This document shows, in pieces, positions 41,852 through 52,649 of a DNA stretch of 64,000 bases; the first letter of the stretch is position 1; each line of letters begins with the position of its first letter. The notes beneath the pieces are model-generated. The model was not told where the DNA came from, searched no databases, and saw only the letters and a list, made by a program, of their open reading frames with translations. Made by a program: the position numbers and the translations under genes. Source of the stretch: an uncultured Saprospiraceae bacterium (lineage in GTDB: Bacteria > Bacteroidota > Bacteroidia > Chitinophagales > Saprospiraceae); contig CALJOK010000030.1 in assembly GCA_937981555.1 (NCBI GenBank), positions 62,001 through 126,000 on the forward strand, given 5' to 3'.

Positions 41852-43096
41852 ATGCGGAAGTCTAAAAATACTCATCGTTGTTCTTTTTGTGGAAGAGATA
41901 AATCTGAAGCACTTATTTTAATTGCTGGAATTGACGGGCATATTTGTGAAGTTTGTGTAGAACAAGCGGATGAAATTATTCAAGAAGAATTATTTGCAGA
42001 TAAAGGAGGAGAAACGAAAGAGGAATTTTCTCTACCAGAAACTGTTACTCCAAAAGAAATTAAAAACCACCTTGATCAATATATTATTGGACAAGATGAT
42101 GCTAAGAAATTCTTGGCAGTAGCAGTCTATAATCACTACAAAAGATTACGTCAAGATGTGATGGATGATGGAGTAGAAATTGAAAAGTCTAATGTACTTT
42201 TTGTAGGAAGAACTGGAACTGGAAAAACTTTATTAGCGAAAACAATTGCCCGGTTTTTAAATGTTCCATTTGCGATCGTTGATGCTACCGTTTTTACAGA
42301 AGCAGGATATGTAGGAGAAGATGTAGAAAGTATTTTGAGTCGATTATTGCAAGTGTGTGATTATAATGTAGCTGCTACTCAAAAAGGAATAGTTTATATA
42401 GATGAGATTGATAAAATCGCTCGGAAGTCTGACAACCCATCCATCACACGTGATGTTTCAGGAGAAGGTGTTCAGCAGGCGATGTTGAAAATGTTGGAAG
42501 GAACTATTGTGAATGTTCCACCACAAGGAGGTCGAAAACATCCTGAACAGAAATTGGTAAAAGTTAATACTGAAAATATTCTTTTTATTTGTGGAGGTGC
42601 TTTTGATGGCATCGAAAAGAAAATTGCTAATCGAGTAAATCGTCAAGTGATTGGTTTTGCAAGTGGGAATAAAGAAAAAATAGATCGTGAGAACCTTTTG
42701 CAATATATTTCTCATCAGGATTTAAAAGCTTTTGGTTTAATACCTGAGTTGGTTGGGCGTTTACCTGTGTTGACTTATTTAGAACCTTTGGATTTGGAAG
42801 CATTGAAAAGAATTATTTCGGAACCAAAAAATTCTATCCTTAAACAGTATATGAAATTATTTGCTTTAGAAGGAATTCGACTGAAATTCAATGAAGGAGC
42901 AATTGAGTATATTGCAGAGAAGGCATTGGAATATGAATTAGGGGCAAGAGGATTACGTTCTATATGTGAAGCAATTATGACTGATGCGATGTTTGAACTA
43001 CCATCTCAGAAAGAGGTGACTGAATTTGAAGTGACTCGGGCATATGCTATGGAAAAATTAAATAAATCAAAAATTTCTAAATTGAAAGCAGCTTAA
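41852..43096 (+). CDS. clpX: ATP-dependent Clp protease ATPase subunit ClpX
   Basis: A 414-residue AAA+ unfoldase. The N-terminal zinc-binding domain has four Cys ([17 protein letters not shown] then HICEVC). The AAA+ core shows Walker A GRTGTGKT (the usual Pro of GPTGxGKT is Arg), Walker B YIDEIDKI, and the sensor/pore loops around [17 protein letters not shown] and the C-terminal [12 protein letters not shown] are conserved. It pairs with ClpP at 40832 for protein degradation. It is transcribed in the same direction, but the upstream terminator and its own -7 box suggest it can be transcribed separately. A cluster of hairpins follows it. Confidence 0.97.
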
Positions 43097-48075: not shown

Positions 48076-51000
48076 ATGAATATCAACTTACCTCAAATTT
48101 TAACGATAGGGTTTTTACTTTTTCATTTTACTTCACTTGCTCAAGTTCCCATCGATTCAGAATTAGAATTACTTCGTGAACGTTATAATAAAACGGTTCA
48201 AGCAAATGAATTTGAACCTAAAATAGGTATTCCCATCTACGAGGAATTAGCGCCTCAATTTGAAAAAAAACAAGACTGGATTTTTTATTATAAATGCCTC
48301 ATTGAAGCAGCATGGGCTTATGATTTTGGAGGAAATAATCAGAAGGGCATAGAAGTAATAGAAGCTGTAGTAAGAGATTATCAAGATCGTAAATTGGACA
48401 ATTATTACCAAGTCAAATTTGGAGATGCCTACTTAAATTATGGTAATATTTTATCAAATGGAGACCAGTTTGATGCAGCCATTTCATCTTTTAATCAAGC
48501 ATTGGATATATATAGTTCATTAAAAGAAGGGGAGAATGGATTTGAGATAAAGGAAAAATTAATGGCTTATAGTAACAATAATCTTTCGAAAGAATATGGT
48601 CGTAAACGAGAGTACGATAAGGCGTTAAAATATATTAAAAAAGCAATAACGCTAAAAATAAAAGTACTTGGGCCGACTCATAAAAGTACCTTGCGTTCGA
48701 TCCGTTCAAGAGGAGAAATTTATATTGAGTTAGGATATTATAACCAAGCATTAGAGGTGTTAAATGAAATTGCTGCTGAATTTGAAAAAGGGGGAATGGC
48801 AGAAGAATTAGCTAAAACGCAACGAGAAATTTCATCCGTATATCAAAAGAAAAATGATTTTAAAACTGCGGAAGAATACATTCGAAAATCCATTTCTATT
48901 TACGATACTTTGGGGCCTCAAAATTTAAAAAACAAGGTATACTCTTTACATCAAATGGGAAATGTGTTAAAAGATCGAGGCGATTATAAGGAGTCGATTT
49001 CTTGGTTTGAAGAAGCGATTGCCTTAAAAAATAAAATATCAGGAAGCCCCAATTATGGTGCAGGTATATCTACTTTAAATATTGGAAAGGCCTATGCTTA
49101 TCTTGGTCAGTATAAAAAAAGTCTGGAAGTTTATCAGGAAGCCACGGAAATATTTGACCAAGTTCTAGATAGAAATCATCCTAAATATATCAGCCTATGG
49201 ATGAGTATGGGGAACTGTTATTTGGATGATGGGCAGGTAAATAAAGCTCATAAATTATTTGAGAAATCTTACGCGTTAGCAAAAGAAGTAACGCTTGGAA
49301 ATAGTCATGACCGAGTATTGTCCTGTTTGAATTTAGCAAAAACTACTCAAGATTTAGATCGGGCGTTGATATTTTGTCAAGAGGGATTAGGGGAGTTAAG
49401 TACCGAATTTGATTCCAGAAATGTGAAGAACAACCCTTTGGTTGAGAATGTGTTTTCAGAATTTCATATGCTTTTATTATTAGAAGAAAAAGCTGCTATC
49501 TTTCAAAAAAAATATCAAAGTTCGAAGAATGAAAAAGACTTAATGTTGGCTTTGGAAACGTACCAAACTGCAACTGAATTAGTAGATTATTCTCGTCAAA
49601 GTTTCTTTACAGAAAGTGCTAAACAATACTTAGCAAAACATGCAAGAAGTATTTATGAAAATGGTACACAAGTCGCTTTTGAATTATTTGAAAAAAAAAA
49701 TAACAATACATTCGCGGAGGTCGCTTTTCAGATGATGGAGAAAAGTCGAAGTTTAATTTTATTAGAAGCATTGCAAACGGAAGCAGCAGCAGAGATTGCA
49801 AAAATTCCAGATAGTTTATCTTTTAAAAGGAATGAATTTCGAAGACAATTATTAAAATTAGAAACACAATTTAGTCAGCTTCAGGATGGAGATGAAAGGA
49901 CTCGAGATTTTAATAATAAGATTTTTGCCATCAAAAAACAGCAGCAATTATTCAATGAAGAACTAAGCGAAAATTATCCAACGATTTCTAAAATTCAAAA
50001 TGAATTAGATCTACTTTCCATTGCCGATATCCAAGATCAACTATCAAATGGAGAGACTTTATTAGAATTTTTAATCACCGAAAAAGAGTTGTTTGTTTTA
50101 AAAATTACAAACGGTAATGTTGGATTTTTTAAAGAATCCATGAATGCAGAGTTAGAGGCTAAAACTCTTGATTTTATTGGTTTAGTGAATGATAATCAAT
50201 TGGCAAGTAAGCAAGGTGCGGGGCAAGAAGTATTTCAAAAATTTACCCAACAAAGTGCGGAGTTATATCAAACTATCTTAGCTTTTGCATTGGATGGAAG
50301 TGAGCAAAAAATAATATTAATTCCTGATTTATATCTTAACTATTTGCCTTTTGAATTATTATTAACGAATAATGATTTTGAGAAAAATGAAATTAATTAC
50401 GCAGACTTGCCTTATTTATTTGTTGAAAATTCCATTCGTTATTCTTTTTCAGCAAACCTTCAATTTCAAAATTTCACTCCTGAAAATCACAACCAAGAGG
50501 TGCTCGCTTTTGCTCCAAAATATGAAGGGAAATCTAATCCTATTCTAGCTTCAAGAAATGGTTTTACCGCTCTTTCTCAAACATCAAAAGAGGTTGAATC
50601 TATTATTGGAATGTTAAAAGGAATTTCAAAAATTGGAAGTACCGCGAACGAAAAAAGTTTTAAATCTTTAGCATCGGAATATGGAATTCTTCATCTTGCG
50701 ATGCATGCTTATACGAATGAAGAGAACCCGATGCTTTCAGGTTTAATCTTTTCCGAAAATGAAGATGAAGAAGATGATGTTTTGCATGCATATGAATTAT
50801 ATGGGATGAAATTAAATGCTCAATTGGCAGTCTTAAGTGCTTGCAATACAGGTAGTGGGAAATTTGAAAAAGGAGAAGGTGTAATGAGTTTAGCAAGAGG
50901 TTTTCGACAGGCAGGAGTGCCTAATGTTGTGATGAGTTTGTGGCAAGCAGATGATGAATCTACGAGGACAATAATGGAAAGTTTTTATACTCATTTAAAG

Positions 51001-51204
51001 AATGGTGTAAAAACAGATGAGGCATTGCGGTATGCAAAATTAGAATATTTAAAAGGTAATTATAAAACATTTCCACATTATTGGAGTGCCTTTGTTTTGA
51101 TGGGCAATGATGATTCTATCGAATTTATTCAGTCTCCTAATTATTTGCTGTGGGGAATTGTAGGAGTATTGTTATTTGGATTGGTTTTTTATTTTAAAAA
51201 ATAA
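48076..51204 (+). CDS. TPR-CHAT protein: predicted secreted/anchored CHAT-family cysteine protease
   Basis: A 1042-residue protein. It begins with a signal peptide (ILTIGFLLFHFTSLAQ, cleavage near residue 23). Residues about 30-450 hold repeated TPR units, seen as KALKYIKKAITLK, KTAEEYIRKSISIYDTLG, ESISWFEEAIALK and KKSLEVYQEATEIF. A coiled stretch lies at about 560-650. The CHAT protease domain (about 730-1010) has both catalytic residues: His877 in HLAMHAYTNEENP and Cys923 in VLSACNTGSG, with GEGVMSLARGF and VVMSLWQADD. A C-terminal transmembrane helix (about 1022-1039, WGIVGVLLFGLVFYF) anchors it. The active domain is thus predicted on the periplasmic face. It converges on a membrane TPR protein and an ECF sigma factor (three bases between stops). 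Confidence 0.92.
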   Translation: MNINLPQILTIGFLLFHFTSLAQVPIDSELELLRERYNKTVQANEFEPKIGIPIYEELAPQFEKKQDWIFYYKCLIEAAWAYDFGGNNQKGIEVIEAVVRDYQDRKLDNYYQVKFGDAYLNYGNILSNGDQFDAAISSFNQALDIYSSLKEGENGFEIKEKLMAYSNNNLSKEYGRKREYDKALKYIKKAITLKIKVLGPTHKSTLRSIRSRGEIYIELGYYNQALEVLNEIAAEFEKGGMAEELAKTQREISSVYQKKNDFKTAEEYIRKSISIYDTLGPQNLKNKVYSLHQMGNVLKDRGDYKESISWFEEAIALKNKISGSPNYGAGISTLNIGKAYAYLGQYKKSLEVYQEATEIFDQVLDRNHPKYISLWMSMGNCYLDDGQVNKAHKLFEKSYALAKEVTLGNSHDRVLSCLNLAKTTQDLDRALIFCQEGLGELSTEFDSRNVKNNPLVENVFSEFHMLLLLEEKAAIFQKKYQSSKNEKDLMLALETYQTATELVDYSRQSFFTESAKQYLAKHARSIYENGTQVAFELFEKKNNNTFAEVAFQMMEKSRSLILLEALQTEAAAEIAKIPDSLSFKRNEFRRQLLKLETQFSQLQDGDERTRDFNNKIFAIKKQQQLFNEELSENYPTISKIQNELDLLSIADIQDQLSNGETLLEFLITEKELFVLKITNGNVGFFKESMNAELEAKTLDFIGLVNDNQLASKQGAGQEVFQKFTQQSAELYQTILAFALDGSEQKIILIPDLYLNYLPFELLLTNNDFEKNEINYADLPYLFVENSIRYSFSANLQFQNFTPENHNQEVLAFAPKYEGKSNPILASRNGFTALSQTSKEVESIIGMLKGISKIGSTANEKSFKSLASEYGILHLAMHAYTNEENPMLSGLIFSENEDEEDDVLHAYELYGMKLNAQLAVLSACNTGSGKFEKGEGVMSLARGFRQAGVPNVVMSLWQADDESTRTIMESFYTHLKNGVKTDEALRYAKLEYLKGNYKTFPHYWSAFVLMGNDDSIEFIQSPNYLLWGIVGVLLFGLVFYFKK

Positions 51205-51207
51205 TAA

Positions 51208-51939
51208 TTATAATTTTTCCAAAATTGTTTTGGCTTCTTCTTGTTTAAAATGTCTTGGTTGATTAGCCATTTTTTGAAAAGCATTTTTTGCTTCTATGAT
51301 GTTTTCCATTTTTAAAAATGACAAAGCGCTAAACCATTCTGCGTTTTGGAAATAAGAACTTTCGGAAGGGATCGCATCAAAAGTGCTGATGGCTTTTTGA
51401 TATTCATTTGTCATCAAAAGACTTACTCCTAAATATAATTTTCCTCGGTCAGAAAACTGAAAATTTTGATCATTTACTAAAGGGGAAAGTAAGTCAATTG
51501 TTTTTTCGAAATCTTGATTTGAATAGGCAGACATTGCTTCATTCCACGCTTCAGATTGAGGTGTATTATTTCGCTCCCCTGCAGGAGTAGGCAATTCAAA
51601 ATGATTAGAAAATAATGTTGCTCCTGATTTTGGTTGTCCTATATTTTGAATAAGAAAAAAGGCGGCTATCATAAAAATAAACATCGCAGCAATTTGCATT
51701 ATTCTTTTTAATGAAAAGGCATTGGCTGATTTCTTTTCATGATCATCTAAAGCAACAATAGCTTTTTTTCTGAGTTGTTCTTTTGCACTTGCTCGGATAG
51801 CTAGTAGATCTTTTTGATGCAATTCAAATTCAAGTTTTAATTCATCATCAGATTCAAGTCGTTGCTTAAAATCTGTTTCAGAAATTTCATTAGATCGGTA
51901 TCGATCAATATATTCTTGATGTTTTTTGAGAGGGTTCAT
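51208..51939 (-). CDS. Membrane TPR protein, candidate anti-sigma factor
   Basis: A 243-residue protein encoded 29 bases downstream of an ECF sigma gene, so likely in one transcript. Residues 1-78 are charged and lack a classic anti-sigma zinc motif; one transmembrane helix lies at about 79-98 (RIMQIAAMFIFMIAAFFLIQ). Residues about 120-243 form a helical TPR-like domain (WNEAMSAYSNQDFEKTIDLLSPLV, KAISTFDAIP, EAKNAFQKMA). The expected topology is a cytoplasmic N-terminal domain that could hold the sigma factor and a periplasmic TPR domain. The anti-sigma role is inferred from position and topology only. Its stop lies three bases from that of the CHAT protease gene on the other strand. Confidence 0.78.
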   Translation of the reverse strand: MNPLKKHQEYIDRYRSNEISETDFKQRLESDDELKLEFELHQKDLLAIRASAKEQLRKKAIVALDDHEKKSANAFSLKRIMQIAAMFIFMIAAFFLIQNIGQPKSGATLFSNHFELPTPAGERNNTPQSEAWNEAMSAYSNQDFEKTIDLLSPLVNDQNFQFSDRGKLYLGVSLLMTNEYQKAISTFDAIPSESSYFQNAEWFSALSFLKMENIIEAKNAFQKMANQPRHFKQEEAKTILEKL

Positions 51940-51968
51940 TTTCTGTATTTTTCTTTTTTATAAAAGGG

Positions 51969-52532
51969 TTATTGCATCAATTTTCTTAATTTTTGTAAAC
52001 ATTTATACTTTCGATCTTTTGCTTGAGTGCTATTTTCCAATCCTATTCTTTTAGCTATTTCACTCATATTATAACCCCAAAAGCCCCAGTCCAAAAGAAT
52101 TTGTTTACAAGGTTCTCCTATCTGATCTAAGTATTTATAAAGTTGATTTATTTCTTCTTCTATCTCTATTTTTTTAACAGCGATAAGCGAAGCATCCGAG
52201 ACTTCGGGTAATTTTTCTCGGTATTCTATTTGGTTGGTCGTATTTTTTCGAAAAAGGTCGACACATTTAAAATAAAAAATTTTATAAAAATAAGTGGAGA
52301 GTTTGCTTTCACCTTTGAATTTGAGCGCAACTATTTGATCAATCATATCCATGATTGCATCTGTAAAAATATCTAGAGCTTCTTCTCTTTTTAGTCCGGT
52401 CTTTTTGGCAACCTTAGGTAGGTAATGAATAAAATCATTCATCACTTGGTTTACGGCTTCTTCTTTTGAAGTTCCACCAGCAACCAAACCTTCGATTATT
52501 TTATCATCGGACCATGTTGAGAGTTTTTGCAT
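51969..52532 (-). CDS. ECF-subfamily RNA polymerase sigma factor
   Basis: A 187-residue sigma-70 family member with only regions 2 and 4. Region 2 (about 20-95) includes REEALDIFTDAIMDMIDQI and GESKLSTYFYKIFYFKCVDLFR; region 4 (about 125-185) includes EPCKQILLDWGFWGYNMSEIAKRIGL and the helix-turn-helix STQAKDRKYKCLQKLRKL. It belongs to the ECF type that couples to a membrane anti-sigma, which fits the next gene 29 bases downstream (reading in its direction). It would direct transcription of a small regulon, possibly including the CHAT gene. No matching promoter was identified by eye. It begins 117 bases before the glyA stop region on the other side. Confidence 0.93.
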   Translation of the reverse strand: MQKLSTWSDDKIIEGLVAGGTSKEEAVNQVMNDFIHYLPKVAKKTGLKREEALDIFTDAIMDMIDQIVALKFKGESKLSTYFYKIFYFKCVDLFRKNTTNQIEYREKLPEVSDASLIAVKKIEIEEEINQLYKYLDQIGEPCKQILLDWGFWGYNMSEIAKRIGLENSTQAKDRKYKCLQKLRKLMQ

Positions 52533-52590
52533 TAAGTAGCCTGAATTAGTTTTTTAAGGTTTTTTAATAGAGAAATAAAAGTAAGCATAA

Positions 52591-52631
52591 AAAAAGGTAT
52601 TAACGTAATGCAATTACGATAATACCTTTTT
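52591..52631 (-). terminator. Rho-independent terminator of glyA
   Basis: A 19-bp stem (52591-52609 with 52613-52631, one mismatch) with loop GCA. It lies 19 bases after the glyA stop on the minus strand and between glyA and the ECF sigma gene. Confidence 0.88.
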
Positions 52632-52649
52632 GAATTTTTTTATTAAAAA

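Follow-up and report, generated by a model that had tools for sequence, protein, structure and literature searches.

A TPR-CHAT protease, a probable TPR anti-sigma factor and an ECF sigma factor in a Saprospiraceae genome as a possible proteolytic signalling module

The window analysed here is a stretch of 64,000 nucleotides from contig CALJOK010000030.1 of an uncultured Saprospiraceae bacterium (assembly GCA_937981555.1), and the element under study is a triad of genes within it, encoding a TPR-CHAT protease, a membrane TPR protein proposed as an anti-sigma factor, and an extracytoplasmic function (ECF) sigma factor (Table 1). In the open reading frame (ORF) list of the window, the stop codons of the CHAT and TPR genes converge with three bases between them. 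An earlier note on this DNA, which suggested that the CHAT enzyme may cut the TPR protein to free the sigma factor, had the ORFs and this convergence right.

Table 1. Coordinates of the three genes and their features in the window.
Feature	Position	Strand	Basis
TPR-CHAT protease gene	48076..51204	+	1042 residues; ORF, CHAT and TPR matches
Likely signal peptide, residues 1-22	48076..48141	+	read by eye; hydrophobicity rule
CHAT domain, residues 728-1011	50257..51108	+	PF12770; predicted fold
Codon of catalytic His877	50704..50706	+	dyad alignment; 60/60 rows
Codon of catalytic Cys923	50842..50844	+	dyad alignment; 60/60 rows
Codon of Asp960, proposed acidic S1-pocket residue	50953..50955	+	Asp in 59/60 rows
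C-terminal membrane helix, residues 1022-1040	51139..51195	+	hydrophobicity score; positive tail follows in 63/69 relatives
Membrane TPR protein, proposed anti-sigma factor	51208..51939	-	243 residues
TPR domain, residues 130-242	51214..51552	-	model; YbgF and BamD TPR fold matches
Extracytoplasmic linker, residues 114-129, without secondary structure	51553..51600	-	model
Codon of Arg123, candidate cleavage site	51571..51573	-	Arg/Lys in 40/41 ungapped rows of 45; third most conserved column
Transmembrane helix, residues 80-98	51646..51702	-	hydrophobicity; model helix 77-101; topology by charge
N-terminal helical domain, residues 1-71, zf-HC2-like without zinc ligands	51727..51939	-	model; hhalign; zinc-bearing relatives
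ECF sigma factor gene	51969..52532	-	187 residues; 29 bases upstream of the TPR gene

Judged by its sequence, the 1042-residue protein has the make-up of a TPR-CHAT protease, with a CHAT domain and a His/Cys dyad behind a TPR array. PF12770 matches the CHAT domain at 187.7 bits (cut-off 24), and TPR matches precede it. Aligned with the genome's CHAT set, His877 and Cys923 fall on the dyad; they are invariant in the 60 rows of alignment A8, in which all rows but one carry Asp at position 960, a residue presumably lining the S1 pocket by analogy with separase. The dyad alignment and the hydrophobicity analysis agree with the earlier note on both catalytic residues, the signal peptide and the C-terminal helix. 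One CHAT-family protein of the same genome (locus L015, 5095-7782) has Pro and Thr at the dyad positions and is probably inactive.

The predicted model of the CHAT protein (mean predicted local distance difference test score, pLDDT, 89.9; predicted template modelling score, pTM, 0.87) points to a Csx29/separase-like fold. Among the PDB matches listed, Csx29 has a Z of 33.1 over 542 residues at a root-mean-square deviation of 14.0, so that this alignment is piecewise, followed by separase ctSPD (Z 28, 312-320 residues, 3.2-3.3 Å), DdvA (Z 23.1, 615 residues, 6.5 Å) and gingipain R (Z 19.6, 268 residues, 3.3 Å). The sequence profile of the CHAT domain matches neither solved separase nor Csx29 at E 0.1; at E 10, DdvA (0.31) and Csx29 chains (1.6-1.9) appear, while separase and gingipain R are absent even there. 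PADLOC assigned the CHAT protein to a generic TPR model and nothing else.

The 187-residue protein is an ECF sigma factor, as judged from its family score and regions 2 and 4. It matches TIGR02937 at 57 bits against a cut-off of 42.9, its Pfam region 2 score is 15.2, below the cut-off of 24, and the profile of its family matches solved SigH, SigW and SigE across nearly the full length.

The 243-residue protein probably acts as anti-sigma factor to the adjacent sigma. It has a single hydrophobic segment and Pfam TPR matches below the cut-offs, and its model (mean pLDDT 92.7) comprises helices at residues 3-15, 21-30 and 32-71, the membrane helix, a loop and TPR-like helices up to residue 242, the TPR part resembling those of YbgF and BamD. 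The N-terminal helices resemble zf-HC2, a zinc-binding anti-sigma domain. Comparison of the N-terminal profile with zf-HC2 segments by hhalign gave 91%, and on match columns 90.5% against at most 1.7% in 100 column shuffles; an earlier shuffle control that included gapped columns misbehaved, with matches up to 99.8%. Other segments of the three proteins gave less than 1%. Three family members, L240, L242 (full partner protein L136) and L247 (full partner protein L119), carry zf-HC2 above the Pfam cut-off, and Pfam found zf-HC2 in 9 of 41 N-terminal segments, the best at E 0.0038. Searched by sequence against the PDB, the N-terminal domain matched no anti-sigma factor, the best match being a Nif11 protein at E 0.01. 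By homology, this domain is thus predicted to be a cytosolic anti-sigma domain and the likely sigma-binding part, in line with the earlier note. The gene is sigma-adjacent and co-directional, as is typical of anti-sigma factors, and sigma and partner genes (relatives of the TPR protein) lie on one strand with a median gap of 5.5 bases in all 46 triads found in fetched loci, these triads having been selected for an adjacent sigma.

The arrangement recurs within and beyond the source genome (7.25 Mb, 117 contigs, 97% complete). This genome has 10 CHAT matches, 6 of them with a TPR-protein relative within 3 genes and 5 of these with an adjacent sigma, together with two sigma-partner pairs that have no CHAT close by (L035, L036); an independent model built from named relatives (A7) and the window protein recovers the same eight partner genes at E of at most 1e-20. 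CHAT matches occur in 23 of 60 genomes of the order. The fetched loci cover most, not all, of the strong CHAT and partner places in this 60-genome sweep plus the genome's own loci, with genes called by a simple ORF finder and domains labelled by models whose training drew in part on these loci. Among them, 46 of 98 CHAT genes of at least 450 residues have a sigma and a partner within 4 genes, and of 86 partner genes, 76 have an adjacent sigma and 50 a CHAT within 5 genes. By coordinates in the sweep, a CHAT occurs no more than 10 kb away from 42 of the 80 partner genes, where 2.9 such genes are expected, a linkage exceeding chance; 35 of these 80 had trained both models, and the remaining 45 include at least 9 with a CHAT at that distance or closer.

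Named loci, picked by CHAT similarity to the mixed query A6, contain the triad in 35 of 80 cases, in 22 of 38 with at least 3.5 kb on both sides, and in 21 of 37 after removal of overlaps with the first set (L162 and L181 were dropped). According to record titles they span Saprospiraceae, Cytophagales, Bacteroidales, Marinifilum, Labilibaculum, Aquimarina and others. The nearest by CHAT, locus L155 of a Saprospiraceae metagenome-assembled genome, has the same convergent order as the window, with identities of 43% (CHAT), 44% (TPR protein) and 60% (sigma). The families are also associated across genomes. In the 60-genome sweep, CHAT is found in 18 of 19 partner-bearing genomes versus 4 of 41 partner-less ones (p 1.4e-10). 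A phylum sweep of 198 genomes found a partner in 31, CHAT in 97 (E 1e-15) and both in 28, that is, CHAT in 28 of 31 genomes with a partner versus 69 of 167 without (p 2.6e-7); outside the order, a listed CHAT lies no farther than 10 kb from at least 21 of the 31 partner genes. The co-occurrence in relatives that the earlier note proposed to look for is therefore seen in fetched loci, in named loci and in phyletic distribution. The 46 triads comprise 21 divergent, 15 convergent and 10 co-directional arrangements, and these three relative orientations indicate that the linkage survives rearrangement and is no operon accident.

Some genomes are rich in bacterial CHAT proteases, with 10 matches here and at least 32 genes in G041 (7.6 Mb), one more lying in L141; G041 holds both membrane and cytosolic sets (e.g. 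L055, L061, L064, L069). Loci L166 and L196 each carry a second short partner gene across the CHAT, plus a second sigma.

Partners fall into two classes: those of the first combine a membrane helix with a TPR domain, and those of the second have no such helix and carry a C-terminal domain with many beta-like motifs (alignment A5). The N-terminal domains of the two classes are homologous (hhalign 98.6%). The C-terminal domain of the soluble class (e.g. L110, 1399-2043) bears a PGRYYWKL-like motif and may be a second type of sensor. Topology was predicted from hydrophobicity and charge. Among named relatives, Lys and Arg are richer before the partner's helix in 38 of 44, predicting a single-pass protein with its N-terminus inside, and the CHAT tail beyond the C-terminal helix is predicted inside in 63 of 69; hence CHAT and TPR domain would both face the periplasm, the side on which the earlier note had placed them. 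A cytoplasmic CHAT domain, held by that note to be incompatible with its proposal, is not predicted at this locus, and cytosolic members elsewhere pair with a cytosolic partner. Soluble partners stand beside a CHAT without export signal in 15 of 15 cases and membrane partners beside an exported CHAT in 30 of 31, giving matched compartments in 45 of 46 pairs under hydrophobicity thresholds that were set after the data had been seen. In the sole exception, L012, a lipoprotein-like signal comes after an internal Met, and with that start the pair is possibly no true exception. In G041 (9:2), G001 (2:2) and G054 (2:1), both kinds are present and none is mixed, a result with a chance of 1 in 990 by hand arithmetic assuming random pairing within genomes. 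For the membrane type, CHAT and partner distances correlate at r 0.33 versus 0.09 in within-genome shuffles (p 0.0002), with p 0.0010 for CHAT-sigma and p 0.0014 for sigma-partner; the soluble type gives p 0.37 for CHAT-sigma and p 0.04 for sigma-partner. Joint duplication could be an alternative source of such correlation.

A candidate cut site lies in the linker between the membrane helix and the TPR domain. Column 123 of the 45-row anti-sigma family alignment holds Arg in 39 rows, Lys in 1, Met in 1 and a gap in 4, and by relative entropy it stands behind Trp202 and Met1. The residue after Arg123 is mostly small, and the equivalent position is occupied by Arg-Ser or Arg-Gly in several soluble partners.

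With a confidence slightly above even, the locus is read here as a one-locus proteolytic signalling channel, in which CHAT cuts the anti-sigma factor and so frees the sigma. The channel is built on computed features, namely gene linkage, matching compartments, an anti-sigma-like domain, a fold with an intact dyad and a conserved Arg; from these we infer sigma binding, cleavage, the cut site, the signal and the later proteolysis. The cytosolic N-terminal helical domain of the anti-sigma factor would hold the ECF sigma, one helix would span the inner membrane, and the TPR domain would lie in the periplasm, on the same side as the exported, membrane-anchored TPR-CHAT protein, a predicted cysteine protease with the separase/Csx29 fold. 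CHAT would be activated by a signal in the periplasm, probably sensed through the protease's own long TPR array or through contact with the TPR domain of its partner, and would cleave the linker, most likely after Arg123. Release of the sigma would follow, presumably once further proteolysis, intramembrane and cytosolic, had taken place as in the case of RseA. In paralogues, the identical scheme would operate in the cytosol with a soluble anti-sigma factor.

Several observations weigh against this channel. No sigma-partner pair lies within 4 genes of 52 of the 98 CHAT genes, and 36 of the 86 partners have no CHAT within 5 genes, many of these loci having been fetched because none was listed nearby; 3 of the 31 partner genomes of the phylum sweep have no CHAT match, and the soluble type shows no co-variation of CHAT and partner distances (p 0.43). 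Arg123 was considered as a mark of CHAT linkage and rejected: among membrane-type partners, 29 of the 33 linked to a CHAT and 20 of the 28 unlinked ones have a basic residue there. Being common without a nearby CHAT, the basic residue in the linker characterises the family and does not prove that CHAT cuts there; in unlinked partners it could serve CHATs elsewhere in the genome or have another role. A paralogue partner in L016 lacks a basic residue at that place. According to the part of the source drawn on, Craspases cut non-conserved sites, between A and S, L and D or M and K (PMC11106740), so the fold does not fix specificity. Finally, the cut could be made by S8 proteases, which adjoin some CHATs and also some pairs that lack one.

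The alternative given most weight, itself judged unlikely, makes CHAT the output, with sigma and TPR anti-sigma factor sensing by other means and switching on a CHAT gene that lies nearby as ECF targets often do. The frequent divergence of CHAT from the pair suits this arrangement, as do the secreted, output-like proteins adjoining CHAT-less pairs, some of them S8 (L121) or M43 (L035, L122, L124) proteases with tails of the type IX secretion system (T9SS); yet an output gene need not share the compartment of the anti-sigma factor, which nearly all do, and DdvA carries a CHAT domain within the anti-sigma factor itself. A promoter shared by sigma and CHAT gave no signal either: in a weak test, the upstream stretches of true pairs were no more similar than those of pairs shuffled within genomes (p 0.36, n=41). 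Distinctly less probable is a receptor complex without cleavage, joined through the TPR repeats that both proteins possess, in which the CHAT domain passes on a conformational change, as may hold in DdvA with anti-sigma factor and CHAT in one chain; a scaffold would need neither the invariant dyad nor the nearly invariant Asp960. That the three genes spread as a block without functional tie, a course open to multi-copy families in which joint duplication could yield the distance correlation, is very improbable given linkage in three orientations, phyletic association and sorted compartments.

Beyond the cleavage channel at this locus, a wider proposal is put forward tentatively, with confidence somewhat below even: a large CRISPR-free family of caspase-like channels in Bacteroidota, with many parallel CHAT/anti-sigma/sigma sets in single genomes, periplasmic and cytosolic branches, and a family-wide cut between Arg and a small residue in a short linker; DdvA would be a fused form, and Craspase a CRISPR-linked form, of one protease-on-anti-sigma principle.

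On the CHAT side, the triad is flanked by genes for ClpX, a tRNA pseudouridine synthase and a PMT_2 glycosyltransferase-like protein, and on the other side by SHMT, a purple acid phosphatase-like protein and GldB, so the locus sits among ordinary genes. The ClpX gene (window 41852-43096) lies about 5 kb upstream of CHAT; ClpXP completes the degradation of RseA, and the proximity is probably a coincidence. A palindrome that includes runs of A and T (window 52586-52633) lies between the SHMT and sigma genes and looks terminator-like by eye. In other loci, S8 genes lie near CHAT in L012 (9092-10498), L014 (217-2382), L102 (3378-4835), L091 (8858-11182) and L088 (10501-12000), and a BLAST-expanded set around them, which also includes non-S8 proteins, touches 10 of 98 CHAT loci. 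CHAT-less sigma-partner pairs stand near T9SS-tailed S8/M43 proteases in L121 (8181-9842), L122 (2005-4734), L124 (6627-9590) and L035 (8948-11137).

In the literature searched, no substrate was found described for bacterial CHAT proteases outside CRISPR. If the channel is real, many of these proteases would at one stroke have a substrate, a site of cleavage and a readout in transcription, and relatives of caspase and separase would be counted, with the classical envelope-stress proteases, among the enzymes that activate ECF sigma factors. It would additionally show how a Craspase-type CRISPR protease circuit could arise from a common part, and provide natural, insulated protease-to-transcription switches for two cell compartments.

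The nearest known system is DdvA/DdvS of Myxococcus xanthus (PDB 8rot, 8rw5), in which a transmembrane anti-sigma factor likewise comes with a CHAT domain; the PDB title reads 'transmembrane anti-sigma factor DdvA' and the molecule is named 'CHAT domain-containing protein'. DdvA is one chain, a natural fusion of two genes that are separate here, and no anti-sigma domain was found in the first 260 residues of 185 CHAT proteins. In the excerpts consulted, DdvS is an ECF sigma factor whose anti-sigma factor DdvA answers an unknown signal (PMC4374960), and it controls an antiphage island in Myxococcus (PMC12288465), which makes a defence role of the present module possible. In the Csx29/Csx30/CASP-sigma system, a TPR-CHAT protease acts on an inhibitor that binds an ECF-like sigma through its N-terminal domain, as described in the excerpt of PMC10028731. 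Here, unlike Craspase, the protease is exported, its partner is a membrane TPR protein and a conserved Arg is proposed as the site. PF03787 RAMP (Cas7-type) has 0 matches in the source genome, against matches in 4 of 14 control genomes, loss in an assembly gap being possible; no Cas7-11/gRAMP gene of type III-E was thus found. The earlier note is accordingly supported in part, for its linkage, its topology, a genome without a RAMP match and its probable sigma-binding domain, and its likeness to type III-E for fold and logic (Csx29), not for membership. It mentions neither DdvA nor the ECF54 context described below.

CalpL/CalpT/CalpS also includes a protease that cuts the anti-sigma factor of an ECF sigma, according to the excerpt of PMC11417357. 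CalpL differs in its Lon-type protease, SAVED sensor, cyclic nucleotide signal and cytosolic location. RseA/RpoE and RsiW/SigW provide the classical topology and proteolytic steps, and their proteases are not known to be CHAT enzymes. The stepwise proteolytic destruction of these anti-sigma factors is mentioned in PMC10028731 (excerpt). Separase and gingipain R are similar as clan CD cysteine proteases of related fold, with other substrates. Separase is specific for Arg. The Arg specificity of gingipain R is taken from the title of PDB 1cvr. That CHAT genes occur in the ECF54 context is already in print, the excerpted review giving conserved carboxypeptidase, subtilase and CHAT genes and proposing proteolytic control without an anti-sigma factor (PMC8999054). 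Only that printed gene context agrees with the present module, the S8 genes beside CHATs here fitting it as well, whereas an anti-sigma factor is proposed here. A CHAT/TPR anti-sigma/ECF sigma module was found described in none of the open-licence papers searched. As far as that literature goes, what is new is the assignment of the TPR protein as anti-sigma factor, the pairing in two compartments, how widely the module is spread and the proposal of a concrete cut site.

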